NCBI GenBank assembly: GCA_030272155.1
Contig: CP126204.1
Coordinates: forward strand, 2,161,501-2,225,500
DNA from: Tetradesmus obliquus
Lineage: Eukaryota > Chlorophyta > Chlorophyceae > Sphaeropleales > Scenedesmaceae
Length of the DNA: 64,000 nucleotides
Direction: 5' to 3'
A model generated the notes under the pieces. The model was not told the DNA's origin, searched no databases, and was given only the letters and a program-made list of their open reading frames with translations. Within the stretch, counting starts at the first letter, position 1. Every line of letters starts with the position of its first letter. Below are positions 175-53,168 of the stretch, one piece after another. Both the position numbers and the translations under genes were made by a program.

Positions 175-868
175 CTGGAAGGCCAAGAAGTCGACCCTGA
201 AGTGGCACCAGTGGCTGGCCGTGTTCTTCCCCTGCTTTGAGTGGATCATTGGATACGACTGGCGGCACAATCTGGCGTGGGACCTGCTGGCAGGCTGCAG
301 CGTGGGCTTCATGGTGGTGAGCATGTGGTGGGCTTGTGGTGGGCTTGTGGCGGGCTCTGTGAAAAAGGCGGCTATGACTGGCTGCTTAACCTGGCGTGGG
401 ACGTGCTGGCAGGCTGCAGCGTGGGCGTCATGGTGGTGAGCATGTGGTGGTGGGCTGTGGCTTCTAGGTGGTGGGCTGTGGCCTTGAGCATGCGGGCTGT
501 GGTGGGCTGTGGGTGCCTGTGGCTTCATGGGCGTGGGCTGTGGTTTGGAGCATGCGGGCTGTGGTGGGCTGTGGGTGCCTGTGGCTTCATGGGCGTGGGC
601 TGTGGTTTGGAGCATGCTGGCTGTGGTGGGCTGCTGCTCTGCTGTTGCTGCTGGTAGTAGTGCTGCTGCCACCAACCACGGCATTCCCCTTGCTGTGCAT
701 GTGCCTCGTGGCACCAAGAGTCTCAGAGCGCTGACTGCTGCTGCTGCTGCTGCTGCTGTGTCTACACACCGCAGGTGCCCCAGGGCATGTCAAATGCCAC
801 GCTGGCCGGTGTGCCCAGCGTGTTGGGCCTGTACGGCATCTTCGATTCATGCTGCCTGCCCCTGACTG

Positions 869-901
<33 letters not shown>

Positions 902-1822: not shown

Positions 1823-1880
<58 letters not shown>

Positions 1881-4800
1881 CTCCCAGTTCATCACCGACC
1901 CAAACAACCTCGACAGCTTCCAGTTCACGGTGAGGCACTGCTGCTGCTCGACACACCTGCATTTGTGATGTCATTGGAACCGCACCACACTCAAGAGCTT
2001 GTTGATACTGTTTGCAAGCCCCGGCAACACCGTTGTGCATGTGATGTTGATGCTGCACTCCTCCTGCTGCTGTCCTTGCGTCACTGCATTGGTTGCATTG
2101 GTTACCACGGCAGGTCCAGAAGCGTTATAACAGGTCGGTGACGCAGCTGGCCTTCCTGGTGTCCATTCTGTACACCGGCATTGGTGTGCTGCGGCTGGGC
2201 TTCCTCATCCGCTTCCTGAGCCACCCCGTGACCACAGGCTTCACATCAGGCGCAGCCGTCATCATCGGCATGAGCCAGGTGAGCCGCTCAGATTCAAAAA
2301 TCTCTTGAACATGGGCGTACAGTAAGCTGACAAAGCATGGCATCCACATCAGGCGCAGCCGACATAATCGGCATGAGCCAGACGAGGGCTTGTTTGTAGG
2401 TTGCTATGCTGCAAAATATCAACCTGGTGCTGCGGCTGGGCTTCCTCATCCGCTTCCTGAGCCACCCCGTGACCACAGGCTTCACATCAGGTGCAGCCGT
2501 CATCATCGGCACGAGCCAGGTGAGCACTCAGATTCAAAAATCTCTTGAACATGGGCGTACAGTAAGCTGACAAAGCATGGCATCCACATCAGGCGCAGCC
2601 GACATAATCGGCATGAGCCAGACGAGGGCTTGTTTGTAGGTTGCTATGCTGCAAAATATCAACCTGGTGCTGCGGCTGGGCTTCCTCATCCGCTTCCTGA
2701 GCCACCCCGTGACCACAGGCTTCACATCAGGTGCAGCCGTCATCATCGGCACGAGCCAGGTGAGCGCACAGATTCAAAAATCTCTTGAACATGGGCGTAC
2801 AGTAAGCTGACAAAGCATGGCATCCACATCAGGCGCAGCCGACATAATCGGCATGAGCCAGACGAGGGCTTGTTTGTAGGTTGCTGTGCTGCAAAATATC
2901 AACCTGGTGCTGCGGCTGGGCTTCCTCATCCGTTTCCTGAGCCACCCGGTGACCACAGGGTTTACATCAGGTGCAGCCGTCATCATCAGCATGAGCCAGG
3001 TGAGAGGCTTGGTTGTGGCTTGTCAAGGTATCAAAGTGCTCGGGAGTGCCGTTGCGTTGATATCAGCATGAGCCAGGTGAGAGGCTTGTTTGTAAATTGT
3101 CATGCTTTGTGGCTTGAACCTGATCTCGGGCTGCTTCCTCATCCGCTTCCTGAGCCACCCCGTGACCACAGGGTTTACATCAGGCGCAGCCGTCATCATC
3201 GGCATGAGCCAGGTGAGAGGCTTGGTTGTGGCTTGTCAAGGTATCAAAGTGCTCGGGAGTGTCGTTGCGTCCGTACTTCAAATATACGTTGAACATTGGC
3301 TTACATTAAGCTGGCGAAGCATGACATCCACACCAGGTGCAGCCGTCATCATCGGCATGAGCCAGGTGAGACGCAGGTCTGTGGTGAGTTTGCTGTGCCT
3401 TGGGGATTCATCCTGATATCAAGGTGCTGTTGCACCCGCTTCCTGAGCCACCCCGGTGACGCCTGGCTTCCACAGAGGGGCTGCTGCTACCATCGGCATC
3501 AGCCATGTGAGGGCTTGTCTTTCGTTTGTCGATCATGGTTCTGGTGCAAAGCACCCAGGCGATAACTTGTTGTGATGCAGCATGGCATGTGTGAAAGATG
3601 CGATGTTGCCTCAGAGCAGATACAAGCTCCGGAGTTTTCCCCAACTGCCTTTGCTGCTGCTGCCTGCCGCCGCCGCCGCTGCTGCTGCTGCCACCGCTGC
3701 AGTTCAGGTACATCCTGGGCTGCAACGTTCCCTGCAAGGACACACTGCAAGAGAAGCAGTCGAATCAATGCAGGCTGTCATTCAAACTCCTTCCCTGCTG
3801 CTGCTGCTGCTGCAGTTCAAGTACATCCTGGGCTACAACGTGCCGCGCAAAGACACACTGCACGAGCAGATCTCTGTGCTGGTTGAGCATGGCAACCTTT
3901 TCAACGTCAAGGAGTTTGGCATGGGCATGTCGCTGCTGGCTTTTCTGATCTGCCTCATGGTGCTGTCCAAGCGCTACCCCAAGAGGCTGTTCTGGCTGGC
4001 GCCGCTAGGCCCCATGGCTGCTGCTGTCATTGGCATAATCGTGGTGGTGGTGGGCAGGTTCAACTACCTCGGTGGGTGGCGGTCATTGTTGCTGTGAAAC
4101 TTGCAGGCGGCATTCTTGTGGTGGGTGGCTAACAGCCACAATGACATGTTATTGTTGATGCAACATTAAATAAAACATGGTGGTGGGTGTGGGCACATTC
4201 AACTAGCTGTTATGCAGCACAGGCTCCTTTGTTCACTTGCTTGAAGCGCATGCAGCTGCATTGCTCATTCAAACTGTTTTGCCTTGTCCTCACGCCTGCG
4301 CCTGCAGGTGCCCCAATCAAGGTGGTGCTCAACATCCCCAAGGGCTTGCCAGGAGTCACCGTCAAGGACTGGCTACCCTTCCAGTAAGTCGCGCAGCAGG
4401 CAGCACAGCTCTGAGTTGGGTAGAATTAGTCGTAGCACCACCGCACACATGTACCATGGGCGATTCGTGTTGCTGCGCTGCTGGATTCACCTTGCACTCA
4501 GTGGCCGCATTCTTTTGCAATGAATGGCCAGCAAGCCATGCAGGGTGCCCCAGTGTGTGCAGGACACGCACATGTGACGCTGCAGCACGCAATAGAGCCT
4601 AACACCAGATGTTGCTGCTGTGCCTGCCGCCCCCTGCATGCGTGCAGGTATGTTGACACGCTAGTGCCTCTGGCATTCATCGTCATGCTGGTGGACATGT
4701 GAGTGCACCCCTGCCAAGTCAGCTTAGATCCAGTTGAGCTGTTGGCATGCCTGCCTGAGCAGGTTGCTGCCAGCTTGTGTTGCCATGCTCTGTATAGTAG

Positions 4801-5009
4801 AAGATGGTGTACAGCTGCAGCCGTGCTGTCTGTATGGCAGAGCGTGGTGCAGCAGCCCGGGAGCTGTCGCTGCTCACAAGCACCTGCAGTGCAGCTGTCT
4901 GCAGACAGACATTGTGCTGCTGCTGTTGCCGCCGCTGCTTCTGCTTCTGCTGCTGCAGGCTTGAGTCCACGTCCATTGCCAGCTTGTGCAAAGACGCAGG
5001 ATATGCTGC

Positions 5010-5047
<38 letters not shown>

Positions 5048-5090
5048 GCTTGAGTCCACGTCCATTGCCAGCTTGTGTAAAGACACAGGA

Positions 5091-5137
<47 letters not shown>

Positions 5138-6513
5138 AGGCTTGAGTCCACGTCCATCGCCAGGGCGCTGGCGCGCAAGAACGACTACAAGATCAGCTAC
5201 GACAGGGAGATCATTGGGCTGGGGGTGGCCAACTTCTTTGGGGCGGCCTTCAATTCATACACCACCACAGGTGATGCGCATTCTGTCACTGTACTGCCTG
5301 TGTGCTGCTTATGTGCTGCTTTTCTGAGCCACCAATGTACATTTTATTGGCAAATTGTTATGTGACGCACTCCTGCTGCATGTTTATGAACACCCGCTGC
5401 CTGCAGGCTCCTTCAGCCGCTCTGCAGTGAACAACGCCTCAGGAGCCAAGACGCAGCTGGCTGGCGTGTTTACAGCACTCATCGTGATGGCTGTGCTGCT
5501 GTTCCTGACGCCCGTGTTTGCGCTGGTGCCCTACAACGCGATTGGGGCCATCATCATTGCCGGCTGCACCACACTGTTCGAGTACAAGGTGGCAGCACAG
5601 CTGTGGAGGGTGAGTTGCTTGCAGGAAGCTGCAGGATACCGTATCCATGTCGTGACCATGTCGTGACGACGTCACATGAACTGTGATGTGTTTTGCTGAG
5701 GTGTGATGCAGTATAGCAGCGCGGTGGTTACTGGCAGTCCCCATTTATATGGCTGCAGCCTGCAGTGTGATTGGCTGACACGGCTGTGCATGTGATGACG
5801 TCAACAACCAGCAGAGGAGCCACACAGCAGCAACCTTGCTGCAGCCTGCCGCCATGTTGGGCCCCACACTGCTGCTCCTCAACTGCAGCACTTGATTGAT
5901 GGAGGCCTCAACCATGAACACCCCTGCACCGTGCTGACACAGCTGCTGCGTCTGTGCTGCCCCCTCTGTTTCTGCACCTGCGCAGACCAACTTCCGCGAC
6001 TTCCTTTGCTGGCTCGCTGCCTGCCTGGGCGTCTGCTTCCTGGGAGTGGAGCTGGGCCTAGGCGTGTCCATCGGCCTCTCGCTATTCCTCTACGTCCTCG
6101 AGACAGCGTTCCCGCACCTCGCCATCCTCGGCCGTGTCGATAAGACCGACCTCGCAGCAAGCACGAAGCAGTTTGCGGGCACGGTGAAGACGGTGCCGGG
6201 CGTGCTCGCACTGCGCCTGGATGCCCCGATGTATTTTGGCAACGTTCAGTATCTGGAGGACAAGATCGACTCCTTCCTCGAGGAGGCCGAGCTCGACGCG
6301 CGCGAGGGCAGGGGTGAGAACCTGTCACTTTGACCAGAGTTTGACTTCGTTTGACTATGACATATGACACAGCGCTGCATTAGCATCTGCACTGCTAGGA
6401 AGAGCAGCCTTGCAGCAAACCCCAGCTCTTTGGCCATGTAACAACAGCAGGCACACCAGCAACGCGCTGCCTGCAGTCGCTCCTGCAGCACATGTACGCA
6501 CCTGCCCTTACCC

Positions 6514-6554
<41 letters not shown>

Positions 6555-6909: not shown

Positions 6910-7130
6910 TCGCGTGAGGCGTCTGTGGGGTAAGGGCGCAGGCGATATAGCAGAACGCAGCAATTGGCTTGGATTGGCGCAGTAGGGGAACAGGCCGGTG
7001 GTACATGGTGGTGTCCTGCAGCTGGCTGGCTGGCTAGGGAGGTTGCAGCGGCTGTTGTGGCTTTGCCTCCTGATGGCTGTTGGGGGCGGACATATCACCT
7101 TTGCAAACTGGGCTGTTGCAGCCAAGCGGT

Positions 7131-7500
7131 GTGCTAGCTTCAGGCTAGCACTGGATGGATGGCTGTTGTGCTAGCTTCAGGCTAGCACTGGATGGATGGC
7201 TGTTGTGCTAGCTTCAGGCTAGCACTGGATGGATGGCTGTTGTGCTAGCTTCAGGCTAGCACTGGATGGATGGCTGTTGTGCTAGCTTCAGGCTAGCACT
7301 GAATGGATGGCTGTTGTGCTAGCTTCAGGCTAGCACTGGATGGATGGCTGTTGTGCTAGCTTCAGGCTAGCACTGGATGGATGGCTGTTGTGCTAGCTTC
7401 AGGCTAGCACTGGATGGATGGCTGTTGTGCTAGCTTCAGGCTAGCACTGGATGGATGGCTGTTGTGCTAGCTTCAGGCTAGCACTGGATGGATGGCAACA
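7131..7500 (+). repeat. 37-bp minisatellite with hairpin unit, 10 copies
   Basis: Units start at 7131, 7168, 7205 and every 37 bp to 7464. Each contains a perfect 8-bp stem GTGCTAGC / GCTAGCAC around the loop TTCAG, then TGGATGGATGGCTGTT. Only one substitution was seen (GG to GA in the fifth copy). It begins 221 bp after the SulP stop, so it probably lies in or near the 3' UTR. It has no variable spacers, so it is not a CRISPR array. Confidence 0.95.
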
Positions 7501-9094: not shown

Positions 9095-9125
<31 letters not shown>

Positions 9126-9232: not shown

Positions 9233-9266
<34 letters not shown>

Positions 9267-9529: not shown

Positions 9530-9680
9530 CACCCACCTGTCCCTGACAGCAGTGGTGTGGTAGATGGCAGTCATCTTAGCAATTTCCCACACCCTCACAC
9601 CCACCTGTCCCTGACAGTGGCGGTCTGGTAGATGATGGTGCATATGTAGCGCTGGATGTTGTCAACATCCTCCAGGATCA
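9530..9680 (-). repeat. Shadow copies of the donor-side end of GILT exon 4
   Basis: 9601-9670 repeats 9726-9795 almost exactly (sense: DNIQRYICTIIYQTATVRD then GTGGGT), and 9531-9560 is a shorter, more decayed copy. Such copies elsewhere end at real donors, so the GILT gene may splice at 9728 into a further exon that I could not identify. Confidence 0.75.
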
Positions 9681-9693
9681 TCTGTGCTTTGCA

Positions 9694-11300
9694 TCATATC
9701 AGCCAATCTCCACACCCACACACCCACCTGTCCCTGACAGTGGCGGTCTGGTAGATGATGGTGCATATGTAGCGCTGGATGTTGTCAACGTCATCCAGCA
9801 GCGGAATGCCGTTCACTGTCACCCATGGCACCCAGCGATGTGGCGGCTTGAGCGAAGCCGTGCGCTGCGCTGCCAGCTGCTGCAGCGTGGCACCCAGGGG
9901 GCCTGCAGCAGCAGATGAGTGGCAAGATATTGCAGTAACTAGCAGAATACGATAGCCAAGGCCAGTGCTGCTTCTTGGTTGAGCAGCGCTGGGCTGCCAG
10001 CTGCTGCAGCGTGGCGCCAACGGGCCCTGCAGGAGCACGTGCATTGCATAGTTTTGTGTCAGGTGGACAAGGGCAGTGCTGATGCTGGGTTGAGCAGCAA
10101 GTCCGTCACCCATGGTACCCAGCGGTGCGGCGGCCTGAGTGAAGCCGTCCGCTGCGCTGCCAGCTGCGGCAGCGTGGCTCCAAGCGGGCCTGCAGCAGCA
10201 CAACAGGTGCAGGCAAAGAGATATGATGGACATGGCTAGCGCTGACGCTGGGTTGAGCAGCGAAGCCGTGCGCTGCGCTGCCAGCTGCTGCAGCGTGGCT
10301 CCAAGCGGGCCTGCAGCAGCAAATGAGTGGCAAGATGTTGCAGCACACTGCAGCATCCGATGGCCAAGGCCAGTGCTGCTGCTTGGTTGAGCAGCGCTGC
10401 GCTGCCAGCTGCTGCAGCGTGTCGCCAAGGGGGCCTGCAGGAGCACATGCATTGCATAGGTTTTGTGTCAGGTGGACAAGGCCAGTGCTGATGCTGGGTG
10501 GAGCAGCAAGTCCGTCACCCAGGGCACCCAGCGGTGCGGCGGCTTGAGACAAGCTGTGCGCTGCCAGCTGCTGCAGCGTGGCTCCAAGCGGGCCTGCAGC
10601 AGCACAACAGGTGCAGGCTTTGCGAATATCATGCACATGGCTAGCGCTGATGCTGGGTTGAGCGAAGCCGTGCGCTGCGCTGCCAGCTGCTGCGTCGAGG
10701 CACCAAGCGGGCCTGCAGCACCACACTTGATGGAGGACAGAAGGCATGCAGAGCGCAGCTTGTGCTGTTGTTGGACAAATGGCACCGCATTGCATGCTCG
10801 CGGAGACACACCCTCATACCAGAACTGTCGTAGCTTGCATGCATCTAGACTACAACAGCACTCCTCATTCAATCCTCTCACCTTCATAGCACGCCATCAG
10901 CTTTTCTGTAACCATGCCAGCATGCACCGCGCACTCATGTGCCAGCTGGTGCACCTCAAACTTCTTCCCAGCCATCACAGCATCCTCCATGCAGGCCAGG
11001 AAAGGGAAGAAGTCGTCCTGCATCGGGTGCTGCGCTGATGCACAGCTGAGCAGCTTGTTCAGCTCACATTCCAGCGGCCCGTGCTGGCAAATGGCCTGGG
11101 TGGAGCCAGCAGCAGCAGCAGCAGCAAGCAGGAGCAGCAGGTTGGTGAGGGTGCGCTGTTGTGCCTCTGCTAGCAGACAGGCTGAGCCGGATCAAAGAGG
11201 CATCCTGCGTCTGAAGTGCAGCTGAGCAGCTTGTTCAGCTCACACTCCAGCGGCCCGTGCTGGCAGATGGCCTGGGTGGCAGCAGCAGCAGCAACAGCGC

Positions 11301-11337
<37 letters not shown>

Positions 11338-11402
11338 CGGCAGCAGTAGCTTATTCAGCTCACACTCCAGAGGCCCATGTTGGCAAATGGCCTGGGTGGA
11401 GT

Positions 11403-11469
<67 letters not shown>

Positions 11470-13881: not shown

Positions 13882-13912
<31 letters not shown>

Positions 13913-27243: not shown

Positions 27244-27300
<57 letters not shown>

Positions 27301-33449: not shown

Positions 33450-33487
<38 letters not shown>

Positions 33488-39712: not shown

Positions 39713-39743
<31 letters not shown>

Positions 39744-40096
39744 GACCCACAGGTGGTGTATGCTCCTGCAAGCGGCAAACGGCTCACCAAGAAAGTTCAG
39801 CAGCCGCTGCCGCTTCTGCAGCCAACCACGACAGCAGAGAAGCAACAGCAGCAGCTGCAGCAGCAGCAGCTGCAGCAGCAGCAGCAGGAGCAGCAGCAGC
39901 GTCAGTCGCTTGCTCCCAGCAGTGTGAACAAGCCGCACCAGCAGCAACCCAAGTCAGCGAAGAATGGGCCAGGCAAATTTGCTGGCATCCTACTGGAGCA
40001 GATTGCTGCCAGGCAAAGAGAGGCAGCAGCAGCAGCAGCAGCGCCGCCAGCAGGCCGCGCTGTTGGCAAGCCTGCAGTCAGCAGCTTAGCACTGCT

Positions 40097-40133
<37 letters not shown>

Positions 40134-40280
40134 TGGCAAGGCCAGCAGCAACAGCAGCAGCAGCAGTGGCAAGGCCAGCAGGCATGCCACCAGCTGAGCG
40201 CGCTGCCTGTAGCTCCCGCAGTGTTTGGCCCTGGACCTGCCAGGTCATTCGGGCCAACCGCCGCAGCACACGCGCGGCCC

Positions 40281-40326
<46 letters not shown>

Positions 40327-41071
40327 CAAAAAGCTTCAAGCCGCAGCCCGCAAGGGGGCCCTCAGCAGCTGCCAAGATCTACAGGGACACCAAGCCATTC
40401 AACGCTCCTCAACGGGCGCGGACACCAACAGCATCATCATCAGCAGCAGCGGCAGCGACAGCTGCAGTTGTGTCTGGTGCTACTACAGCTGGTGCTGCTG
40501 CTGGCAGTTCGAATCCCAGGGGACGCCTGAACCCTGAGCCTGGCACTTTCAAGGTCCCTAGAAGAGTGCTGGCAGGTGCAGCAGTGAATGCAGCAGCAGC
40601 TGGTGGCTCAGACCTGCCTGCAGCAGTGGCTGCTAGCGGCGCTGCTGCTGGAGAGAGCGCTGCTGCTGCTGGCCTTGGCCTTGGCTTTGTGACTCGCCAG
40701 GGCAGGGGCATTCATGTGTCTGAGGCAGCACTCAACGCTGCAGCAGCGCTGCTGCGTGATGAGCTGGCGCCAGCACACCAGGCAGAAGAAGATGAGCAGC
40801 AGCAGCAGCAGCAGCAGCATGACGCAGCAGGCGTGCAGGCAGAGCTAGCTGCGTCAGCAGCGCACGGTGCATCTGCTGCCACGGCAGCTGAAACGTTTGG
40901 CTTTGTCACTGCTGGCGGGAAGGGCATTGCTGTGTCTGACGCAGCGATGGCAGCAGCGCAGGCCTTGCTGCATGATGAGCTAGCACTAGAACCCCAACAG
41001 GCATTGGATGAGCAGCAGCAGCAGCCACAGGGACCCTTCTTCACATCCCTGTCAGCAGAAACGGCAGCTGA

Positions 41072-41102
<31 letters not shown>

Positions 41103-42522
41103 GCAACAGCAGCAGGTAGTGGCTTTGGCTTTGTCACTGGTGCTGGGAAGAGCATCGCTGTGTCTGATAAAGCCATGGCAGCGGCAAAGGCACTCTTGCA
41201 GGAGGAGCTAGCTCCACAACCTCAACAGGCATTGGATGAGCAGCAGCAGCAGCAACAGGTAACATTTGGTACAATCCTGTCGGGAGAAGCGGCAGCAGCA
41301 GCAGCAGCAGCAGGTAGTGGCTGTGGCTTTGTCACTGGCGCTGGGAAGGGCATTGCAGTGTCTGATAAAGCCATGGCAGCAGCAGAGGCACTGCTGCAGG
41401 AGGAGCTTGCATTTGGACCCCAACAGGGCTTGTTAGAGCCGCAGCTGCTGGATGCCGCGTATCCACCCGCAGAAGGGGTAGCAGCAGCAGCAGGTGGTAG
41501 TTTTGGCTTTGTCACTGGCGCTGGGAGGGGCATCGCTGTGTCTGAAGCCGCTATGGCAGCAGCAAAGGCACTGCTGCAGGAGGAGCTAGCTCCAGACCCA
41601 CAGCAACAAGAAGAACAGCAGCAGCGGCAGCAGCAGCAGCAGCGGCAGGGCCGTAGGCACCTGCTAGCCAGGGGCAGTGGCAGTGTAGGCGTGGGCAGCT
41701 TCAAGCCACCTCGTGTAGAGAGGCAGCATGCCACTGCAGCTGGCAAAGTTAGCAAGGCTGCAGCTGCAGCAGCACAGCCACACCAGCCGCAGCAGCAGCA
41801 GCAACAGGGCCTGCACAAACCAGCAAGCAACACCTGGCAGCAGCAGGCTGCGCCGTGGCAGCAGCAGCTAGAGCAGCAGCACGGGCAGCAGCAGCAGCAG
41901 CCTGCATTGCCACTGGAGGAGATCCAGGGCACGCTGCTTGGCTCAGATGACCTGGCTGGCATCGACAGCATTCTGGCAGCATATGAACAGGCTGCACCAG
42001 CTGCTGCTGGCTGTGATGGACCAGCAGAAGCACCAGCGGGGTCGCCTGTTGCACAACCGCCAGAACAACTAGCTCAAGTAGCAGCAGCAGAAACAGCAGC
42101 AGATCTGCAGCCTGACGAGCCGGCAGCAGCTGACGACGCCACTCCTGCCGCTGCTGGTGACAGCAGCGAGAAATTCGTTGAAGAAGCAGCGCCAGATCAT
42201 TCCCAGCAGCAGCAGCAGCAGCAGCAGCAGACAGATGAGGCTATGATCGATGTGTCTGCTGCAGCTAGCTCTCCTGGCAGCCTGTTGGCTGCCGACATCA
42301 CTGCTGCTGCTGCTGCTGCCGGTGCTCCAAACAGCCTCATCAGCATGGAAGGCCTGACTGCAAGCGAGTGTGCCGCTGCTGCTGCCCTGCACGCGCACTT
42401 GCATGAGGTGGCTAGCGCTGGCACTGCAACTGCCGCAACAGAGCAGGATCCTATGGCAGCAGCAGCAGCAGCAGAGGAGGAGGTCGTTGGAGCAGCCAAT
42501 GCAGCAGCAGCGGCTGATGATG

Positions 42523-42560
<38 letters not shown>

Positions 42561-44102
42561 CAGGGGCCTGGGGCATGGGCAGCAGCCTGTGCTGCTTTCA
42601 AGCAGGGTGGAGCAGCTGCTGCCAGCAGCAGGCAGCTGGGCAGCAGCAGCTTGCAGAGCCAGCTCTGCTCTGATAGCCAGGCCACAGGGCGAGAGGCTGA
42701 TGCAGCAGCGGCAGCAGCAGCAGCTGTTGATAGGGGCTTTGAGGCTGTGCATGTGTCTCAGCAAGCTATAGGGCAGGAAGAGGCAGCGGAACTGCAGCCA
42801 CCAGGACTGCCGCTTGATGCAGTGCACAGCGCACTACAACCAGCAGCAGCAGCAGCAGCAGCAGCAGATGATGGACGGTTGTCTCCAGCAGCCCAGCGTG
42901 CTGCTGCTGCAGCAGCAGCATCCGGCAGCAACGGAGTTTTTGACTCCACCCCTGGCCTGTCAGGTGAGGTGCTGCTGCTGCCGAGCCCCGCTGCTGGTGC
43001 CGTGCAGCAGCACAAAGCAGCAAGCGGCAGCAGCGGGGCGAACGCCATGCCAGACTCTGCTGCTGCTGCTGCCGGTGACATGGCCTGTGGGCTGCCGCAG
43101 CCAGAGGTACCTCTGCAGCAGCAGCAGCCGCAGCAGCAGCTGGACCCAGCTGATGCAGCACACGACACAGCAGCAGCAGGCCCAGACGCACCTCCAGCAG
43201 CTGCTCGCCGCTGCGTCAAGCCACTGCTTGTTGATGCCTCATCTGCTGCTGCTGGGCCGTGCCTGCCAGCCCCTGCAGGGTCAGGCCTCTGCTGGGCTGC
43301 TGGGGATGGCGTGCTGCTGCGGCAGCAGTCGCTGCAGCAAGGGGCTGCCTTTGTGCAGCAGCTGCGGCAGCTGGGGCTCCTGCCGCCTGCTGCTGCTGCT
43401 GCTGCTGATGGTGGGCGTGGTGGTGGCGCTGTTGCTGGCTGTGGGTGCTGCGTGCAGCAGCAGCTGCTGGTGCAGCTGTGCTGCGATGCTGCTGCTGACT
43501 GTGTGCGGCTAGAGCTGGGGGTCTGGCCTGAGCCGGCAGCAGCAGCAGCAGCAGCAGGAGGGGCAGCAGAGGGTGTGTCTGCAGGACTGCTGCGCAGCTT
43601 GGCAGGCAAGAGGAAGCATGGCGCATTGGACCATGCAGCAGTGACGGGTCACAATATAGGGGCAGCAGCAGCAGCAGCAGCTGCAGCTCCAGCAGCAGTA
43701 GCAGAGTGCGTGGATCTGACAATGCAGGATGCTGAGCTGGATGATTCACAGGCTGCAATAGCAGCTGCAACAGCAGCCGTCGCAGCAGCAGTTGCTGATG
43801 CAGATACAGTCATGGTGGAAACCTTGGATGCTGGGCTGGACTCGCCTGCAACACTGCATGCAGCAGCAGCAGACAGGGCAGGCGCGGCAGCGGCAGACTC
43901 AACTACAGCTACCGTTGCAGCAGCTGCTGCCAGCACAGTGGCAGCTGAAGTTGTGCCAGCAACGCCGCTGCTGCCGGCAGCAACAGCAAGCGATGCTGCT
44001 GCTGCTGCTGCCGCTGCAAAAGCTGGCAGCTTGTCACGTGCTGTGAGCGACGTCGTTGCAGAGACGCCAGCAGCAGCACTCACCCAGCAGCAGAATCTGC
44101 CC

Positions 44103-44139
<37 letters not shown>

Positions 44140-44228
44140 CTGTTGTTCAAGGAGGTGCTGCTTGTGCTGCAGCGTCCATTCCTGCAAGTCTTGAACCCGA
44201 TCAGCTGCCTGCCACATCAGCTATCCTG

Positions 44229-44264
<36 letters not shown>

Positions 44265-44744
44265 CAGGAGCAGCTTTCAGATACAATGCGTCTTGAAGAG
44301 GAGCCACACATGCAGCAGCAGCAGCAGCCAGTGGGTGACACAGTGTTGCTTGACAATCCTGTCGGTGCATCAACACAGCATTGCAGCAACCCTTCTGACT
44401 CACTGGCAATTAGCCAGGGCGACAGAGGCGGAGCAGCAGCAGCAGCAGCAGCAATACCAGATTCAACTGCAGCTGAGGCTGGGCCGACATTGCCAGCTCA
44501 TCAAGTGGAAGCGGCAGCAGCAGCAGCAGCAGCAGATGATGATGATGCGCCACCAAGTGCCCTGCCTGTGAGAGACCTGTTTGGGGCTGCACAAGACACC
44601 CCAGCAATAGCACCATCCACAGTAGCAGCAACGCCAGCAACAGCAGCAACGAGTGCTGGGCCAGGGACAGACTGCCCTGACACTGGCTGCAGCACTCTGC
44701 CTGTGGCTGACCTGTTTGGAGCTGCGCTGCCCACACCAGCAGTG

Positions 44745-44780
<36 letters not shown>

Positions 44781-46969
44781 GGCCAAGGCGGTCCTGCAGA
44801 TGTGCCATCTGCTGCAGGTGACACGCTGCCTGTGGCCGACCTGTTTGGAGCTGCATTGCCTACTCCAGCAGCCTTGGCAGCCTTATCAGCAGCAGCAGTC
44901 GTCGCAGACTTGCCAGCACACCAGCATCCTGCAGAGCTTGGTCAGCAGCAGCAGCAGGAGGTGAGCTGCTCTTTGAGTGGTCGCTCTGCTGTGTCACTTG
45001 GACTCAGTCAGCTGCCAGAGTTCTGCACTGTAGAGCTGCAAGCTAAGCTGGCAGCTGACCGAGCAGCTGCAGCACTTGCTGCTGCTGCTGCTGCAGCAGA
45101 GCAGGAGGGCGCTGAGACACTTGCCGTTGATGCTGAGGATGAGCCTGCAGCAGCAGGTGCTGATACAGCTGCTGCTGCTGCTGCTGCTGCTTCTGCTGCT
45201 AGGGAGCTGCAGTTTACTACAGCTGCAGGCAGCAGGGTAAGCATCTCAGAGGCAGATCAGGCACGAGCTTGCGGCATCAACCTGTTCAGCCAGCTGACGC
45301 AGCAGCAGCAGCAGCAGCAGCAGCATGGTGAGAACCCAGCAGTGGCAGCAGTAGCAGCAGCAGGTGAGGCAGCAGGGGCAGGGACTGCCAGCGCTTCGGC
45401 TGCTGCTGCTGCTGCTGCTGCTGCTGCCTCTGCTTCTAGTGCTGCTGCAGGCTGGGCTGCTCTGCTGCAGACGGGCAGCGGCAAGCAGGTGGCATTCAGC
45501 ACAGCAAGCATGGCTGCTTTCAAGCAGAAGATGGGCCACCTGATACAGCCATCAGAGCAGCAACAGAAACCAAACACTTCAACAGCAGCAGCAGCGGCAA
45601 AAATGGCAGGCGATGCAGCAGCAGCGAGGGTGAAGCGCAAATTTGGTGTAGCAGGCAGCTTGGAGAATGCTGTGCAAGGTTCTGCAGGCTCCGCTGCTGC
45701 TGCTGCCGATGCTGATGCACAGCGTGGTGATGACGGCTACGAGCGCAGGCCAGTCAAACGCCCCAGCTGCTCACCTGAGGCGCCTGCAGAGCAGCAGCAG
45801 CAGCAGCAGCAGCAAAGAGAAGCATCGCATATGCCAGCAGCAGCGCCTCCTGCAGGCGCCAGCGGCTTGGTTACTGCTGGAGGTCGGAAGGTGGAGCTGG
45901 GTGCTGCTGCTATGGCTGAGTTTCAGCAACGCATGGGCCAGCAGCAGCAGCAGCAGCAACAGCAACAAGAACAACAAGAGCAACAGGCGGCAGTCGCAGC
46001 AGCCCCAGCAGCAAATGGCCTGATCACTGCTGGAGGTCGGAAGGTGGAGCTGAGTGCTGCTGCTATGGCTGAGTTCCAGCAGTGCATGGGCCAACAGCAG
46101 CAGCAGCAGCCAATGGATGCAGCAACAGGAGCCAGCAGCGGTCTGACCACTGCAAGCGGCCGGCATGTGCCCCCAGCCAGTGCTGCTGCTGCAGCTGCAT
46201 TCCAGCAGCGCACTGGACAGCCAGACCAGCAGCAGCAGCAGCCACTGAATGCGGCAGCGGGAGCCAGCAGCGGTCTTACCGCTGCTAGTGGCAGGCATGT
46301 GCCGCCTGCCAGTGCTGCTGCTGCAGCTGCATTCCAGCAGCGCACTGGACAGCCAGACCAGCAGCAGCACCAGCAGCAGCAGAAGCAACAAACAGCAGCT
46401 GCTCAGCGCGTAGGCAACCCACCAAGCGCTGCTGCTGTCAGATCCAGCAGGAACAAGCAAAGTTTGCTACAGCGGCTTCAGGAGCGAGATGAGGATGGTG
46501 CTGCAGGTACAGCTGCAGATCCAAGGCCGGCAAAGCGCCAAAGCTGCTCTCCTGCTACACCAACAGAGCAGCAGCAGCAGCAGAGTGCAGCGGGAGCGTC
46601 TAGGGGCTGCTTGCTGTCTACTGCTGGTGGCAGGAGTGTGCAAGGACCCAGCAGTGAAGCTGCGGCAGCATTCAGGCAGATGATGGGACAGCAGGAGACG
46701 CCTGTGCAGCAGCAGCAGCAGCAGTCAATTGCTCCTGCAGCTTGCATGCTGTCTACTGCAGGCGGCAGGAGTGTGCAAGGACCCAGCAGTGCAGCTGCGG
46801 CAACATTCAGGCAGATGATGGGGCAGGAGACGCCTGTGCAGCAGCAGCAGCAGTCAATTTCTCCTGCAGGTGGCCTGCTATCTACGGCGGGCGGCAGGAG
46901 TGTGCAAGGGCCCAGCAGTGCAGCTGCAGCAGCATTCAGGCAGATGATGGGACTGCAGGAGACGCCTGT

Positions 46970-47012
<43 letters not shown>

Positions 47013-50000
47013 CAGTCAATTGCTCCTGCAGCTGGCATGCTGTCTACTGCGGGCGGCAGGAGCGTGCAAGGGCCCAGCAGTAAGGCTGCAGCAGCATTCA
47101 GGCAGATGATGGGACTGCAGGAGACACCTGTGCAGCAGCAGCAGCAGTCAATTGCTCCTGCAGGTGACCTGCTGTCTACTGCGGGCGGCAGGAGTGTGCT
47201 AGGGCCCAGCAGAGCCGCTGCGGCAGCATTCAGGCAGATGATGGGGCAGCAAGATACGCCTGTGCAGCAGCAGCAGCAGCAGCAGTCGCTTGCTTCTGCA
47301 GGTGGCTTGCTGTCTACTGCAGGTGGCAGGAGTGTGCAAGGACCCAGCAGTGCAGCTGCGGCAACATTAAGGCAGATGATGGGGCAGCAAGATACGCCTG
47401 TGCAGCAGCAGCAAGATACAGCCAACCCTGCATCTGCTGCTACCACCAATAGCAGCAGCAGCATGACGCGTAGCAGGCAGCGAATGGCAGCCAGTAAATC
47501 TGTTACGCCTGCTACAGCACCACCAGCAGTAGCTGCCACTCCTTCAACAGCAGCTGCAGCTGCGCAGGCCAGCAAGGCTGGATCAGCACTCAATCTTATT
47601 ACACGCAAGCGTGGCCTGGCCCAGCAGCAGCAGCAGCAGCAAAGTGGGGCTCCTGCAGAGCAGCAGCAGCAGCAGCAGCAGCGTGGTAAGCGTGCTTTCA
47701 AGGCACCAGCAATGAAGGCTGGCTCAGCCGTCAAGACGCCATGTGCCAGGGGTCCTGCTGCTGCTGCTGCTGCTGCTGCTGGTCTGGCGACACCACTGCC
47801 AGCTCAGCAGCAGCAGCAGCAGCAGAAGCCACCCAAGGTGAAGGGGCTGCACTATGAACAATACTTTGCTCTGGCCAGGGCGCAGCGCAGCAGCAAGCTG
47901 AGCTCCAACAAACCCACAGCAGCTGCGGATGCAGATGCTGATGCTGCTGGTGCAACAGCAGCAGCGGCGGCGGCAGGGCTAAGCACTGCGGGCGATGCAT
48001 TAACTGCTGCTGCAGCACGCCCCGATGAGGAGCACTGGGTCGCCCTGAGCTTGCCAGTCACACCCGATGAAGCGGCTGCTTTCAGGTTCACTGCTGCCAG
48101 TGCTGCTGCTGCTGCTGGCGCTGCCACGGAAACAGGAACGTCAGCAGGCCTTGAGCCAGCAGCTGTAGCAGCAGCAAGTGCTGTAGCAGTTGGCAGCAGC
48201 AGCAGAAGCTTTGGCGCTACAGAGGCGCGGCAGCAGCTGCTGTCCTGGGGAGCTGATCCGGAGCAAGCGACTGCTGCCTGGGTTGCCAATCACTACAAGT
48301 GGATTGTGTGGAAGCTGGCAGCATATGTCAGGAAGTTCATGTGCAGCAGCGGCAGCAGCAGCAGCAGCACTGACGATGACAGCAATGCAGGCCCTGCTGC
48401 TGCTGGGGATGAGGCAGCTGAGGCTGGCGACCCTGCAGCAGCAGCAGCAGAAGCAGAGGGAGAGGCGACGCCGTGGGTGGTGAAGGGTCAGCGCAAGGCG
48501 GCAGCAGCAGCGCAGCCAGCCGACACTTGTTGCCTGTCTGTGCGCAGCGTCATGCAGCAGCTGCAAGGCCGCTACACTGCTGAGGTGAGCGGGGCAGCAT
48601 GTGTGTACAGCGCCGTCTGACAATCTGCTGTTTGTGGGCGCTGCTTGCCCTGCTGTGGATGATGTCAAGAGCTTGCACTATCACAACAGAGTAGATCTGT
48701 GCTAGTGAGCAGCCCCGCGATTGATGCTGCAGCTTATATTTCTGCAACCGCCGCCCCTTCATGCATGTATTGCCTCATGCGACTGCTGTGTCCCCTTTCC
48801 TGCAAGCTGCAGTCTTTCCTGCAAGCTTTCCTGTAAGCGCTGTTTCTGCAAACACAGGCATTTTCCTGCAACATTTCCTGCAGGTGCGCGAGGGCCAGCG
48901 CTCGGTGCTGAAGAAGATCCTGGAGCAGGACCTGCCCTCAAGGGTGCCCTTGGTGCTTATGGTCAGCGCAATTCGCACACGAGACGTCAACAGCAAGCAG
49001 CAGCAGCAGGGCGACCAGCAGCAGCGGGGTGGTGCACAGGCGGACACAGCAGCAGCAGCAGCAGCAGCGGTAGCGGGTGACGTGCAGAGCATTCAGCTGA
49101 GTGACGGCTGGTATGCTGTCAATGCTACGCTAGATGGGCCACTGGCTGAGCTGGTGCTGCAGGGCAGGATACAGGTGGGCTGAGTAAAGCTGCTTCATGT
49201 TGTGCTGCATGTTATGTTTTGTGTTATGTTTCATCTTGCGGGTGCTGCTCGTACTCTGCCGGCAGCTGGCTGATCTGGTGCTGCAGGGCAGGATACAGGT
49301 GGGCCTAGTGTTGTGTTACGTTAGTGTCGCATTGCAGCAGGACAGGCCAGCGGGACCCGGATCTGCTGTGCTGTGCTGTGTTGTGTTGTGCTGTGCTGTG
49401 CCGAGCTGGAGTCGGACAGGCCAGCCAAACTCCTGCTGTGCTGCCCTCTGAGGCTATCGGCACTGTTGTTGTGCTTGTCTGCCCTGCGTTGTGCCATGTT
49501 GTGCAGGTTGGCAGCAAGCTGTGTGTGGCTGGTAGCAAACGACACGGACGCGTGCGGCCTCTTGCAGGATACTATAAGATGTGCTGTGTTGTGCTGCGCA
49601 GGTCGGCATGAAGCTGCGCGTGGTTGGCTGTGAGTTGAAATCAGACAGGCCAGCTGACCCGCTGGAAGCTGTGCGCTGGGCGCTGCTGCTGCTGACCTAC
49701 AACAGCGTGAGCCCCGTGGCTTGGGACACCAAGCTGGGGCCTGTGCAGGCGGGACACACACTCAGGTGAGGGACACTTTGGCACAACTCACTATCAAGTT
49801 ATTGCTTGAAACGTGAGCACCGTGGCTTGGGTCACCAAGCTGAGGCCAGTGCAGGCGGGACACACGCTCAGGTGAGCGGCCTTTGGGATAATGTGGGACA
49901 CATGCTCAGGCGTGGGACAGGCTAAGACAGGACGTCATGGCAGGCAAGTGGGTTCACTTGTGCGGCCACTGCTGCTGGCATGGACATCTAGCAACAGTTG

Positions 50001-53000
50001 ATTTGATGAAGCAAGGTGCTCCTTTCACTTCAATCGCCAATTGCAAACTGGTACTGCCCAACAGGTGCCGTCCAGGCAGTGATTACTGCTGTCCCTGCTT
50101 ATCCAGGGCAACTTCACAAAAGCCGCTTGCAGCTGTGCACAGCGCAGCAGGTGCCGTTCAGTCGCAGCCCTAACATGCCTCACCACCCGCTGCTGCTGTC
50201 TGCCCTGCTTCTGCCACACCCCCAATCATCCCCACCCGCAGGGCGCTGTCTCAGGTGCACCCGGCAGGCGGCCTCGTGCCGCGGCTGCTGCTGGTGCAGC
50301 GCGTGTACCCGCTGCAGGACTCACCCGCCTCACCACTGCTGCTGCTGCTGCTGCCTTCCTCCCTCCTGCCATGTCTCCCAACAGGGCGCTGTCTCAGGTG
50401 CACCCGGCAGGCGGCCTGGCGCCGCGGCTGCTGCTGCTGGTGCAGCGCGTGTACCCGCTGCAGTACTACTGCCGCTCCAGCAGGGCGCTGCTCACACCCA
50501 AAGCACTTGCGGCAGCGCAGCGGCAAGCGGAGCGGCAGCAGGAGCAGGTGGGGGGTTGATAGTTGGATCGAGTGGTTACTTTGGTGTGTTCATGCGGCTG
50601 CGCCACGACATACACCTGGTCACAGCGGAAGCTGCAAGTAGCTCAGCTCAAGCAGCAGGAGCAGGCGGGTGGGTGGCTGTGGCAGTGGCAGTGCTGCATG
50701 GCAGCTGTGACGCGCTATCATGTAATTGCAAAACTCACTGACTGTGCGTTGGTTGTGGCTCCTTTCTGCGCTGCAGCTGCAGCAGGCTGCTGCTGCCGCC
50801 GCTCGTGCAGCAGAGCTTGACCTGTGCAAGGAGTGGGCAGCAGCAAACAGCGGAGCATCTGCAGTAGAGCAAGCATACGCAGCTGCAGTGCTTGGCAGCA
50901 GTGAGGAGGGTTCAGGGTTTGGGCGCAGCAGGGAAACTGTCACACCGGGGCAGCTACACGGCTTTAGATCTGAAAGGGAGCGGGCGATGGAGCGCTGGAG
51001 GCAGCAGCACATGCAGCAGCTGGTAGCTGAGGCAGAAGCTGCTGCAGCGGCAGCAGCAGCCGGCGGCGGCGGCGGCCGCGCTGCTGCTGTTGTTACGGGC
51101 CTGTCGTTGACCGTTGATCCGCCAATACCCGTGCAGCGGCTGCGGGTAACTGGAGTGCTGCCACTGCTCCTGACCAACAGCGGCAGTGACAGTGGCCAAG
51201 CTCAGCAGCAGCAGCAGCAGCAGCAGCATGGCCAGGCTATTGTCAAAGCCTGGAGGGCTGCAGAGGTGGTGCAGCAGCTTGAGGAGGGGCTGGTGGTGGT
51301 GGCTGTGGGCTTGGCTGCTGGTACTGACGGCCGCAGCTGCACTGTTGACCTTGGAGGAGTGGGGAAGCCATTATTGGAGCTGAGCACCACAAAAGTTACC
51401 AGGTGCGGGTTCAGGGCTCCCAAAGTTGTGGGTTTTGTGGGATTTGGGGGCAGTGTGGCACGGAAAGGACCGCTGGGGACCTTTGGGGGTCTCAGCAGGC
51501 GTCAACAGTGCATGCAGCATGTCTGCACACGGCTTGTTGCTGATTGTTCCACACACCATTACTTACATCCTGCTGCCTTGCTGCCCTGCCTGGTGCTTCG
51601 ATACACATATGCAGCTGGCAGGCGGTAGGCGCCTCAGCCGCGATGACGCACATACAGACGCCTCACCCAAGTCATGCTGCCCTGCTGCATGTTGTCCTTT
51701 TGTTCCAATGTTTGCGCAGCTTGCAGGCGGTGCGCCCCGCAGCCTACATGTCCAGCAAGCTAGACCTTGGGCCAGTCTGGCAGCCGCGCAGCATTGCATG
51801 CAGCCTCTGTTGCAGCACACTGCTTTTCTCTAGTCAATTTATCCATGGGCACATCACCCACATCGTGCTGCGCCGCTGCCCTGCCTGTTTACAATCTTGC
51901 CTTTTCAATCCTGCAGCTGGCAGGCGGTGGGCCCCGCATCAGTCATGGCCAGCAGACAGCCGGACCTAGGCCCAGCCTGGCAGCCGACACTTGCACCTGC
52001 TCTCTGTGTCAAACCATTGCCGCTGCTCCGCCTCTTTTCTTCTCGGCCTGCAGCTGGCAGGCGGTTGGGCCTACAACCGCACTGGCGGCTTTCTTTTGTT
52101 GATTTCTTAAACAAGCTGCCCTGCTGCTCTGCCTCTTGACTTGTGCAGCTGGCAGGCGGTGGGCCCTGCAGCCGCAATGTCGTCCAAGCTGGACCTTGGG
52201 CCAGCCTGGCAGCCGCGCAGCATTGCGAGGCTGCCGCAGCTGCAGCAGGGCCTGCAGGGCTGCGAGTTTGACTTTGCTGGCGTGCTGCTGTGGGCGGGGG
52301 AGGTCATGACAAGTGAGTGACGGCTGGGGACAGCAGATAAGTGCATTACTTGGACCTTGCCGCAAACAACACTTATTGCGAAGCTGGGCTTTGATATGCA
52401 GACCCTTCTGCCTGTGTCAAGCCAGCTGCAGTGCAGCTGGCGAGTAGGGCAGCACACCTGTCTGCATGATGAATGCATGGCAGGTTCAGTGCTTTTCCGA
52501 ACGTGTCTGCTACGTCTTGTTGAGGTGTTGATCTGCACCTCAGCCCGGCTGCACTGTTGCTCTCAACTGGCGGTGCAGGCGGCCGGGAGCACAGCCAATG
52601 GGCCTTCCTGGCAGCAGAGACTGACCCTCAGCAGCAGCAGCAGCAGCAGGATGCTGGTGGAGCAGCAGCATCAGCTGAGCCTATCGCCATACTGGCGGTG
52701 CGGCTGGTCGGAAACTCACCTACTTGCATCGATTGGCTGAAGCCTAGCAGCGTCAGCACCCAGCAGCAGCAGCAGCAGCAGCAGCAGGCGGCAGCGGTTA
52801 CACCAGCAGCAAGCACAGCCGGCGCAAAAGCAGCAGGCAGTACTGGCCCAATGCACACGCGCACAGCCACACGGCGGCTAGCAGTCACGCACCAGCAGGG
52901 CAAGCAGCAGCAGCAAGGCAGCAGGGAGACGCTGGTGCTCTTCCGCAACCTGATATTGCAGCGCTTGGATGCAGCAAATGGCATGTGGGTGGCCGTGGCA

Positions 53001-53168
53001 CCTGACACGGCTGAAGTAACGGTTGCAGCAGCAGGCAAGGGCTCGCTAGGTGGCGGGGCAGCAGCAGCAGCACGGGTGGCGGAGCTGCGAAGCTGGGCGG
53101 GGCAGCAGCAGCAGCAGCAGCTGGGTGTGCTGAGGGCGCATGTGCAGCGCCTTGTGGGCGTGGCTTGA
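38772..53168 (+). CDS. BRCA2: BRCA2 orthologue with 17 BRC-like repeats
   Basis: Recombination mediator that loads RAD51/DMC1 on single-stranded DNA. Exons: 38772-38811, 38980-48584, 48884-49174, 49602-49765, 50385-50547, 50777-51402, 52149-52312, 52579-53168; 3,880 residues, all phases close. Exon 2 alone is 9.6 kb. BRC-like repeats: five near residues 575-885 (GFVTGAGKGIAVSDKAMAAA), two near 2090-2203 (FTTAAGSRVSIS, LQTGSGKQVAFS), four near 2308-2470, six near 2554-2820 (LSTAGGRSVQGPSS). The DNA-binding domain follows: helical domain WVANHYKWIVWKLA (about 3114), OB1 with SDGWYAVNATLDGPLAELVL, then OB2 and OB3 (about 3528-3880). It has long Gln and Ala runs. The start could be an in-frame ATG at 38610. 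No C-terminal RAD51 motif was recognised. Confidence 0.93.
40660..41600 (+). repeat. BRC-like repeats 1-5 (block A)
   Basis: Five units of the form GFVTxxGKxIxVSxxAMAAAxALLxEEL. These keep the Phe of the RAD51-binding FxxA motif, although the fourth position is Ala only in unit 2 (FVTA) and Gly or Arg elsewhere. They also keep an LLxEE/LLxDE segment matching the LFDE motif. Confidence 0.85.
44560..44875 (+). repeat. Three copies of a LPVxDLFGAA motif inside BRCA2
   Basis: LPVRDLFGAAQDTPA, LPVADLFGAALPTPA and LPVADLFGAALPTPA, about 130 bp apart near residues 1875-1970, between BRC blocks. Not a BRC repeat. Conserved while the surrounding Ala/Gln sequence is not. Confidence 0.8.
45208..46360 (+). 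repeat. BRC-like repeats 6-11 (block B)
   Basis: Units 6 (FTTAAGSRVSISEAD) and 7 (LQTGSGKQVAFSTASM) are single and divergent. Units 8-9 (GLxTAGGRKVELxAAAMAEF) and 10-11 (GLTxASGRHVPPASAA) are two recent pairs separated by Gln runs. Confidence 0.8.
46600..47412 (+). repeat. BRC-like repeats 12-17, coding minisatellite (block C)
   Basis: Six near-identical units LLSTAGGRSVQGPSSAAAAA plus FRQMMG, spaced by GQQETPVQ and 3-15 Gln. The period is about 125-165 bp at DNA level and the sequence similarity shows recent expansion. FxxA has become LSTA and the LFDE position is lost. Confidence 0.88.
49262..49540 (+). repeat. Shadow copies of BRCA2 exons 3 (end) and 4 (start, middle)
   Basis: 49265-49303 repeats the exon 3 end (LVLQGRIQ plus GTGGGC). 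49404-49440 repeats ELKSDRPA of exon 4, and 49503-49535 repeats the exon 4 start (CAG/GTTGGCAGCAAGCTG against CAG/GTCGGCATGAAGCTG). All lie in intron 3, with GCTGT low-complexity DNA between. Confidence 0.75.
49803..49920 (+). repeat. Two shadow copies of BRCA2 exon 4 3' end
   Basis: 49812-49875 repeats the exon end (TGGCTTGGGTCACCAAGCTG .. GCGGGACACACGCTCAG/GTGAG). 49896-49915 is a shorter third copy (GGGACACATGCTCAGG). Confidence 0.85.
50236..50330 (+). repeat. Shadow copy of BRCA2 exon 5 5' end
   Basis: CGCAG/GGCGCTGTCTCAGGTGCACC onward repeats the true exon at 50385 for about 80 bp (ALSQVHPAGGLVPRLLL against ALSQVHPAGGLAPRLLL), then diverges. Confidence 0.9.
51611..52110 (+). repeat. Four shadow copies of BRCA2 exon 7 5' end in intron 6
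   Basis: GCAGCTGGCAGGCGGT and variants at 51611, 51717, 51912 and 52050 precede the true acceptor at 52144-52148. The copies at 51717 and 51912 extend about 85 bp (AVRPAAYMSSKLDLGPVWQP against AVGPAAMSSKLDLGPAWQP). Each begins at the acceptor CAG. Confidence 0.88.

Follow-up and report, generated by a model that had tools for sequence, protein, structure and literature searches.

Segments within genes, exon-intron borders included, are reportedly duplicated in the process of internal gene duplication treated by Gao and Lynch (2009, PNAS). Another report mentions an 83-bp duplication that lies inside an intron and leaves the gene structure unchanged (PMC4974935). Two further sources deal with tandem duplicated alternative exons (PMC9013439) and with small tandem duplications that arise from staggered breaks and fill-in (PMC8355091); the latter gives the size of the common human insertions as less than 100 bp. 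In the open-licence PMC literature that was searched, we found no report from green algae of the pattern described below, in which the edges of exons recur as degenerate copies within neighbouring introns.

The sample comprises a 64,000-nucleotide stretch of the genome of the green alga Tetradesmus obliquus (hereafter 'the window') and five further blocks of 40 kb each (C1 to C5). Gene models are self-trained ab initio predictions, and the class counts given below are approximate because several intronic copies are themselves predicted as exons (e.g. 2400-2519 and 50242-50547). Pfam matches support the assignments of SulP, GILT, WD40, TatD and BRCA2-OB1. Copies in the window were traced by self-alignment with CTG/CAG runs masked, and a second, separate search proceeded edge by edge over the 168 predicted splice edges of the window. 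Unit lengths were taken from a diagonal scan, given that BLAST apparently overlooked offsets shorter than about 50 bp; a 49-bp tandem array reported by TRF was absent at that offset from the BLAST self-alignment.

The edge search recovered copies at 17 of the 168 edges. A first-pass annotation had claimed exon-edge copies in six genes of the window, and self-alignment upholds this for five of them (SulP, GILT, WD40, TatD and the BRCA2-like gene, all covered by the models), but not for a Cys-rich minus-strand gene, where the edge search found a copy at 0 of 26 edges with the threshold used for the other genes. The features are as follows.

251-316, plus strand: SulP exon 1 donor edge, copied at 370-435 (offset 119; the intron part is homologous too)
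759-843, plus strand: copied acceptor edge of SulP exon 2, whose true edge lies within 902-986 (89% over 85 bp)
2186-3460, plus strand: SulP exon 4 donor edge (exon end 2278) and an array of units of about 240 bp, each made of exon end and intron start (self-alignment and TRF; TRF period 240, 97% matches over 2186-3004)
3701-3756, plus strand: copied acceptor edge of SulP exon 5, whose true edge is at 3814-3869 (self-alignment, edge search)
4957-5092, plus strand: two copies, with (CTG)n, of the acceptor edge of SulP exon 8, which occupies 5140-5270 (89-bp period)
7130-7496, no strand assigned: noncoding tandem array (37-bp unit)
9571-9675, minus strand: copy of a GILT exon donor edge, with the true copy at 9694-9798 (91%; homology extends into the intron)
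9818-10725, minus strand: array of GILT exon-edge copies (offsets about 119-124, 287 and 408 bp)
11030-11518, minus strand: array of GILT exon-edge copies interleaved with (CAG)n (self-alignment, tandem-repeat scan)
13968-14185, plus strand: donor edge of a WD40 gene exon that runs to 14036, copied in the intron at 14103-14185 (self-alignment, edge search)
14910-15105, no strand assigned: intronic tandem array (49-bp unit)
15638-15919, plus strand: true acceptor edge of the WD40 gene exon that starts at 15863, together with its copies (self-alignment, edge search)
16081-16405, plus strand: donor edge in the WD40 gene, ending at 16144, with two copies downstream of it (units of about 110 bp)
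19013-19256, plus strand: donor edge of a TatD exon that runs to 19035, with tandem copies in units of 65-79 bp
19851-20062, plus strand: TatD coding end (about 19851-19936) and copy in the 3' flank (19977-20062; self-alignment)
40896-41605, plus strand: BRCA2-like in-frame coding repeats (offsets 228, 198 and 180, all multiples of 3)
46111-47401, plus strand: BRCA2-like in-frame coding repeats (offsets 132 and 135)
49142-49304, plus strand: BRCA2-like exon donor edge and a 33-bp exon-like copy (49266-49298; offset 124)
49706-49886, plus strand: donor edge of a BRCA2-like exon that runs to 49765, copied at an offset of 106
50239-50467, plus strand: true acceptor edge of a BRCA2-like exon together with its copy, at an offset of 143
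51572-52247, plus strand: true acceptor edge of the BRCA2-like exon at 52149 and four upstream copies (51572-51648, 51712-51817, 51898-51986 and 52022-52087; self-alignment, edge search)

The position of the TatD stop was read directly from the sequence, and the TatD event at 19851, which is classed as a splice-edge event, resembles a copy of the coding end.

Local direct duplications are present in the window and in all five blocks, where they account for 4-24% of the sequence. Shuffling three of the blocks left 0 pairs, and the shuffled window gave 0 hits in a diagonal scan in which a third of the offsets were tried. An exon-edge copy was found at 51 of 710 well-scored predicted splice junctions, and 48 of these 51 copies lie in the adjoining intron. 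Such copies are not peculiar to the window, which holds 13 of the 48 intron-side junctions, the other 35 being distributed unevenly over the blocks (C1 10, C2 2, C3 1, C4 4 and C5 18). Similarity of copy to edge ranges from 70 to 100%, broadly in line with the 75-95% noted at first, and the early impression that whole exons are rarely copied also held (3 of 147 events).

The copies had been described as starting or ending at the junction, but the homology commonly continues past it. Among 46 of the 48 copied junctions (those with an offset of up to 420), the duplicated unit includes homologous intron in 28, namely at 20 of the 28 donors and at 8 of the 18 acceptors (p<=0.05, with p values computed against the flanks of other junctions). 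Over all 48 junctions, the intron part of the unit has a mean identity of 0.60, compared with 0.34-0.39 for random segments. Since intron is frequently within the copied unit, we regard the copies as genomic duplications across the junction. An origin from spliced RNA is rejected for the copies as a whole, given that both intron sequence and the GT were duplicated, a rejection that does not extend to copies without significant intron homology. The GT is retained in 21 of 28 donor copies and the AG in 15 of 18 acceptor copies, and it is possible that such copies act as decoy splice sites.

We consider it likely that these structures reflect frequent, position-blind, short-range duplication filtered by selection. 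Direct duplication of segments, typically of 100-150 bp, would strike without regard to genes. A duplication within an exon would survive mainly if its length is a multiple of three, whereas one that spans a splice junction could survive at any length, presumably because splicing at the outer site (the first donor or the last acceptor) keeps the mRNA unchanged and strands the extra exon edge in the intron. The intron half of the unit would then decay faster than the exon half, so that the visible remnant would come to resemble an exon fragment trimmed at the junction, although this is not the whole story. The offsets fit this scheme: of 39 same-exon duplications, 28 have an offset divisible by three, whereas the offsets show no frame preference between exon and noncoding sequence (26, 22 and 30 for remainders 0, 1 and 2).

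Blindness to position is shown, within this sample, by unit lengths that are alike and by similar densities in introns and between genes. The overall peak in unit length falls at 100-140 bp, and the lengths of exon-noncoding and noncoding duplications are indistinguishable (KS p 0.48; 0.85 for the BLAST set). Noncoding duplications occur at 0.42 per kb in introns (46 events) and at 0.46 per kb in predicted intergenic sequence (16 events), which argues against a process tied to splicing or transcription. These results also weigh against the idea, which we judge quite unlikely, that CTG tracts, R-loops or transcription target duplications to splice junctions, as does the finding that intron bases are covered about equally close to and far from junctions (10-15%). 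That idea draws some support from the spacers between copies, 13 of 60 of which contain a CTG/CAG tract against 5.6 expected (p 0.003; the analysis took in 60 of 147 duplication events), and from the approximately twofold excess of copies at exon edges described below. Yet copied acceptors are not enriched in tracts of four or more units within 80 bp (5 of 18, compared with 71 of 334 uncopied; p 0.56), and neither are copied donors (2 of 30, compared with 40 of 328; p 0.55). The first-pass statement that acceptor copies usually follow (CTG)n was thus too strong. The link between CTG and copying is weak, and tracts at acceptors are rejected as the driver.

The same annotation had held that clustering at junctions exceeds what random duplication would produce. 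A gradient towards exon edges is already predicted by random duplication once copies that disrupt the coding sequence are lost. When half of the in-frame exon-internal duplications are assumed to be kept, the selection model roughly fits exon coverage at 60-500 bp from the junction, to within about 30% (0.086, 0.067, 0.045, 0.034 and 0.025 observed in successive bins; 0.072, 0.052, 0.037, 0.026 and 0.024 modelled). Closer in, random duplication plus selection leaves part of the junction excess unaccounted for: within 30 bp of the exon edge coverage reaches 0.161, twice the 0.080 predicted, and that of the next 30 bp is 1.5 times the prediction. Likewise, splice-edge and noncoding events stand at 41:23, against 0.64-0.91:1 in simulations, a ratio that uses 64 of the 115 events with an offset of 85-320 (of 147 in total), the remainder being 3 start/stop-edge and 48 other events. 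This excess is driven by events with partial homology (33:16; p 0.0001-0.006) and comes also from blocks C1 (9:0) and C5 (17:3), the window standing at 10:10. Full-length duplications, though few, are compatible with the model (8 splice-edge to 7 noncoding; p 0.30 and 0.80) and lack the significant junction excess that targeting would call for. Judged by eye, as many as 13 of the 21 exon-exon events in the window resemble splice-edge copies, and a small number of its noncoding pairs derive from a single exon edge; if these events are misclassed, the true splice-edge excess would be higher still.

A rival explanation is that exon-derived copies are protected after their origin, either as functional alternative exon ends or through birth by exchange between diverged alleles, in which case they would start with mainly synonymous differences and with intron flanks already diverged. 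We hold this to be unlikely. Among exon-noncoding pairs up to 12% diverged, 133 of 219 mismatches (61%) fall at third positions, and among two-exon pairs in the same range 115 of 197 do so, where 48-49% is the neutral expectation; a coding paralog pair has 55 of 80 at these positions. Stops number 4 over all 84 exon-noncoding pairs, against 11.9 expected, and a smaller count of 48 pairs gave 151 of 274 third-position mismatches and 1 stop. In addition, the exon part of the copies is better preserved than the flanks, and the junction excess resides mainly in partial-homology events. Certain copies match their exon at 90-100% without significant intron homology (e.g. C4 25409, C4 4958 and C5 5293), a contrast that exceeds neutral decay and therefore counts against our preferred explanation. 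The bias nevertheless dwindles to 235 of 456 (52% versus 48%; p 0.17) over all 84 pairs, to 102 of 237 above 12% divergence, and to 50 of 118 (42%) in the window alone. The absence of frame preference and the rarity of whole-exon copies also speak against protection, and the ab initio models may mix real exons into the copy set. Gene conversion between exon and copy was considered as well, but by our reasoning it should make synonymous differences a smaller fraction of the total, not a larger one.

At the 42 of 48 copied junctions with an offset of up to 320, copy and exon are always at least 43 bp apart (0 of 42 closer, against 28% expected below 42 bp under a plain model). This empty gap of 0-42 bp and the third-position bias are not explained by duplication plus selection. 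One conjecture, which we would not expect to prove correct, is that a copied splice site with less than approximately 43 bp of its own intron flank cannot outcompete its twin, such that the genome would map the minimal self-sufficient donor and acceptor, and that some exon-edge copies are kept from decaying by use or by allele exchange.

Two further accounts appear far less plausible. The copies might be marks of intron gain, either through tandem duplication of an exon segment that carries AGGT or through introner insertion, and the window intron at 16145-16254 does have matching sequence around its donor and acceptor. This signature was evident in 1 of 404 predicted introns (score above 18), with a doubtful acceptor, and intron gain is accordingly rejected as the main cause and judged very improbable overall. 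As for introners, a single 200-bp exon query returned 3 matches (itself, a local copy and one site in C5 that also matches the SulP family), so that this one exon shows no dispersal across the genome. An assembly artefact or repeat collapse, in favour of which no evidence emerged, is more improbable still, given that the copies are degenerate, all six stretches are affected and same-exon duplications mostly keep the frame.

Returning to position-blind duplication, the maker is probably break repair, for example staggered-break fill-in followed by end joining, by analogy with published mechanisms, from which we also infer that arrays would grow by slippage or unequal exchange. Among short two-copy duplications at 93% or more (units of 22-54 bp), 8 of 10 have 2-8 bp of extra homology at their ends; in the ungapped list, no two-copy duplication with a unit of at least 90 bp at 93% or more attained its full unit length. 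Taken as a whole, exon-edge copying is real, and most of it looks like a product of selection, not a device aimed at splice sites. If this is right, gene structure is shaped by short duplications that arise at a high rate, and introns accumulate exon fragments because duplications are harmless there. The copies could serve as a source of new exons and splice variants. They are also a concern for annotation, in that they often retain splice dinucleotides and mislead gene finders, including the one used here. The peak in unit length and the empty gap are measurable signatures that could, genome-wide, be related to the repair process and to splice-site requirements.

As in internal gene duplication, exon and intron of one gene are both duplicated (51 of 710 junctions, with significant intron homology in 28 of 46), but the T. 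obliquus units are mostly 100-150 bp and usually leave partial exons in introns, and local duplications make up 4-24% of the blocks. Tandem duplication of exon sequence with its splice signals is shared with the system of PMC4974935 and PMC2891723, but the T. obliquus copy sits in an existing intron with no new one evident (signature in 1 of 404 introns). With tandem duplicated alternative exons (PMC9013439), our examples share exon copies in neighbouring introns, but differ from mutually exclusive exons in being mostly partial (whole exon in 3 of 147). Short direct duplications are also the subject of PMC8355091, and in our sample 8 of 10 short two-copy examples have 2-8 bp of extra end homology; the common human insertions given there are under 100 bp, against a mode of 100-140 bp here.

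Exon-edge copies, the degenerate local duplicates of exon ends that lie mostly in the adjoining intron, are a real pattern and are present at uneven density in all six sampled blocks. The window covers 2161501-2225500 of contig 14 in an assembly of 104.7 Mb and 17 contigs, and its sequence resembles that of a green alga. It was self-aligned after CTG/CAG runs had been masked, and self-alignment was likewise run in five further 40-kb blocks from contigs 1-5. Gene models were produced by a simple two-strand gene finder with SulP as training seeds; its last training round called 42 genes with a total of 446 exons over 264 kb. Pfam matches in the window comprise SulP, GILT, WD40, TatD, BRCA2-OB1, formate/nitrite transporter and ephrin-receptor-like domains, and a second BRCA2-like fragment gave no Pfam match. 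Features noted in the window are as follows.

1112-1706: within an intron of SulP, an element of 595 bp whose 92-bp terminal inverted repeats match perfectly
21756-31032 (minus strand) and 33057-37682 (plus strand): two related Cys-rich genes in inverted orientation to each other; the ephrin-receptor-like domain match comes from a fragment of the plus-strand one
38949-48620: 3223-codon open frame 5' of the BRCA2 OB-fold exons, with Gln/Ala runs and abundant in-frame repeats
55691-57412 and 59593-61318 (minus strand): related genes in tandem, the second matching formate/nitrite transporter
63071-64000: unbroken (TGC)n of 310 units, reaching the window end

Local direct duplications (partner no more than 3 kb away, score of 50 bits or above) hold 12.6% of window bases and 10.1, 4.0, 4.3, 12.6 and 23.8% of those in the other five blocks, and shuffled sequence from the three blocks tried yielded none. 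Across the six blocks, 51 of 710 well-scored splice junctions carry an exon-edge copy (33 donors, 18 acceptors), located on the intron side in 48 cases, and 15 of 39 multi-exon gene models have at least one such event. The densest block, with the 23.8% figure, is contig 5, 1000001-1040000, where splice-edge and noncoding events number 17 and 3. The first-pass annotation had assigned copies to six genes, and five of these are upheld. The exception is the minus-strand Cys-rich gene, with none at 26 edges; the 17 copied edges found by searching all 168 in the window belong to other models. No copies were found at the 11 edges of its plus-strand relative or at the 33 edges of the formate/nitrite-transporter tandem-pair model.

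The intron part of the copied unit aligns with a mean identity of 0.60, compared with 0.34-0.39 for random segments. Judged against the flanks of other junctions, a stricter control, this homology is significant at 0.05 for 20 of 28 donors and 8 of 18 acceptors. GT is kept in 21 of 28 donor copies and AG in 15 of 18 acceptor copies. Taken together, these results make genomic DNA spanning the junction the source of most judgeable copies.

Coding and noncoding DNA seem to share a single duplication process. With a diagonal scan (offsets 12-700), 232 events were recovered, peaking at 100-139 bp (85 events, versus 13 at 50-89 bp). Median unit lengths are 135 (exon-noncoding), 147 (noncoding) and 132 (same-exon), with no difference detected between the first two (KS p 0.48; BLAST set 0.85). 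The density of noncoding events is 0.42/kb for introns (46 events) and 0.46/kb for intergenic DNA (16 events). Duplications cover 10-15% of introns in every bin of distance to the junction, 23% of intron bases lacking an assignable distance, and 7.7% of intergenic DNA. Local inverted pairs are scarcer than direct ones (18 versus 127), and 10 of the 18 lie inside one array in the contig 3 block.

Two other repeats were encountered. The first ~139 bp of the 595-bp element are found again at about 40 further sites, spread over 16 of the 17 contigs (86-100%; at least 83 matches, with 40 of 207 candidates scored), and among those scored, its positions 146-496 match only their own locus. The element has the appearance of an inserted non-autonomous DNA transposon. 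An identical 71-bp noncoding pair on contig 3 (6096-6166 and 6302-6372 of the stretch L033, 206 bp apart) has ends similar to short inverted repeats, and is probably a different kind of element.

The clustering at splice junctions, initially proposed to exceed random tandem duplication, is only partly of that kind. Same-exon offsets are divisible by three in 28 of 39 cases, and several of the other 11 seem to be copies fused into an exon by the gene finder; exon-noncoding offsets leave remainders 0/1/2 in 26/22/30 cases. When random duplications were simulated and those damaging coding sequence removed, exon coverage 60-500 bp from the junction came within about 30% of that observed. Coverage exceeds prediction in the first 30 bp (0.161 versus 0.080) and at 30-60 bp (0.122 versus 0.082). 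Beyond 500 bp, the surplus (0.090 versus 0.022) is attributed to in-frame repeats, as in the BRCA2-like gene. We consider the pattern to be chiefly survivorship after frequent short duplication, plus a leftover edge excess.

Splice-edge and noncoding events stand at 41:23, against 0.64-0.91:1 in a forward simulation with decay and detection. Full-length events (8:7) fit the selection model and partial events (33:16) depart from it. This favours preferential survival of sequence derived from exons over targeted formation, with the caveat that the full-length set is small. Consistent with better survival, third positions hold 133 of 219 mismatches in exon-noncoding pairs diverged by at most 12% and 115 of 197 in such two-exon pairs (48-49% expected), and stops over all 84 exon-noncoding pairs number 4 versus 11.9 expected. 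The corresponding counts are 55 of 80 for the coding paralog pair and 236 of 406 for same-exon repeats, the tandem genes at 55691-57412 and 59593-61318 serving as coding-coding control. Counting against it are the third-position shares over all 84 pairs (235/456, 52%, p 0.17), above 12% divergence (102/237, 43%) and within the window (50/118, 42%). If copies arose by exchange between diverged alleles, their differences would be synonymous early and neutral later; some functional copies, or mis-called exons, are possible alternative explanations of the third-position signal.

The distance from exon edge to copy is never below 43 bp. None of 16 acceptors and none of 26 donors falls under 42 bp, where uniform breakpoints would place 28% (p 0.009 and 0.0003). 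In the duplication model, this distance equals the intron part of the unit. On a natural reading, the outer splice site would be used only if the duplicated site brought its own intron flank; for an acceptor this flank would supply the branch point and pyrimidine tract, and for a donor the downstream context. Short gaps could also be lost where the gene finder merges in-frame copies, at a guess at most a third of them. A formation or decay effect may contribute, as short gaps separating visible copies are infrequent in noncoding pairs too.

The suggested tie to CTG tracts survives in the spacers, where 13 of 60 contain a tract of at least four units (5.6 expected, p 0.003), but not at copied acceptors (p 0.56) or donors (p 0.55), which show no enrichment. 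CTG repeats may contribute to individual events or arrays, but do not look like the general cause.

The leftover edge excess merits a genome-wide test backed by RNA data. Internal duplication of genes was reportedly treated by Gao and Lynch in 2009. Our searches of open-licence PMC literature found no report of such a pattern in green algae. Duplication inside genes (PMC2809761, PMC4974935), new introns arising by tandem duplication (PMC4974935, PMC2891723) and small tandem duplications from staggered breaks (PMC8355091) are all established. Compared with these, the density of duplication described here, its length mode of 100-140 bp and the absence of gaps below 43 bp seem unusual.
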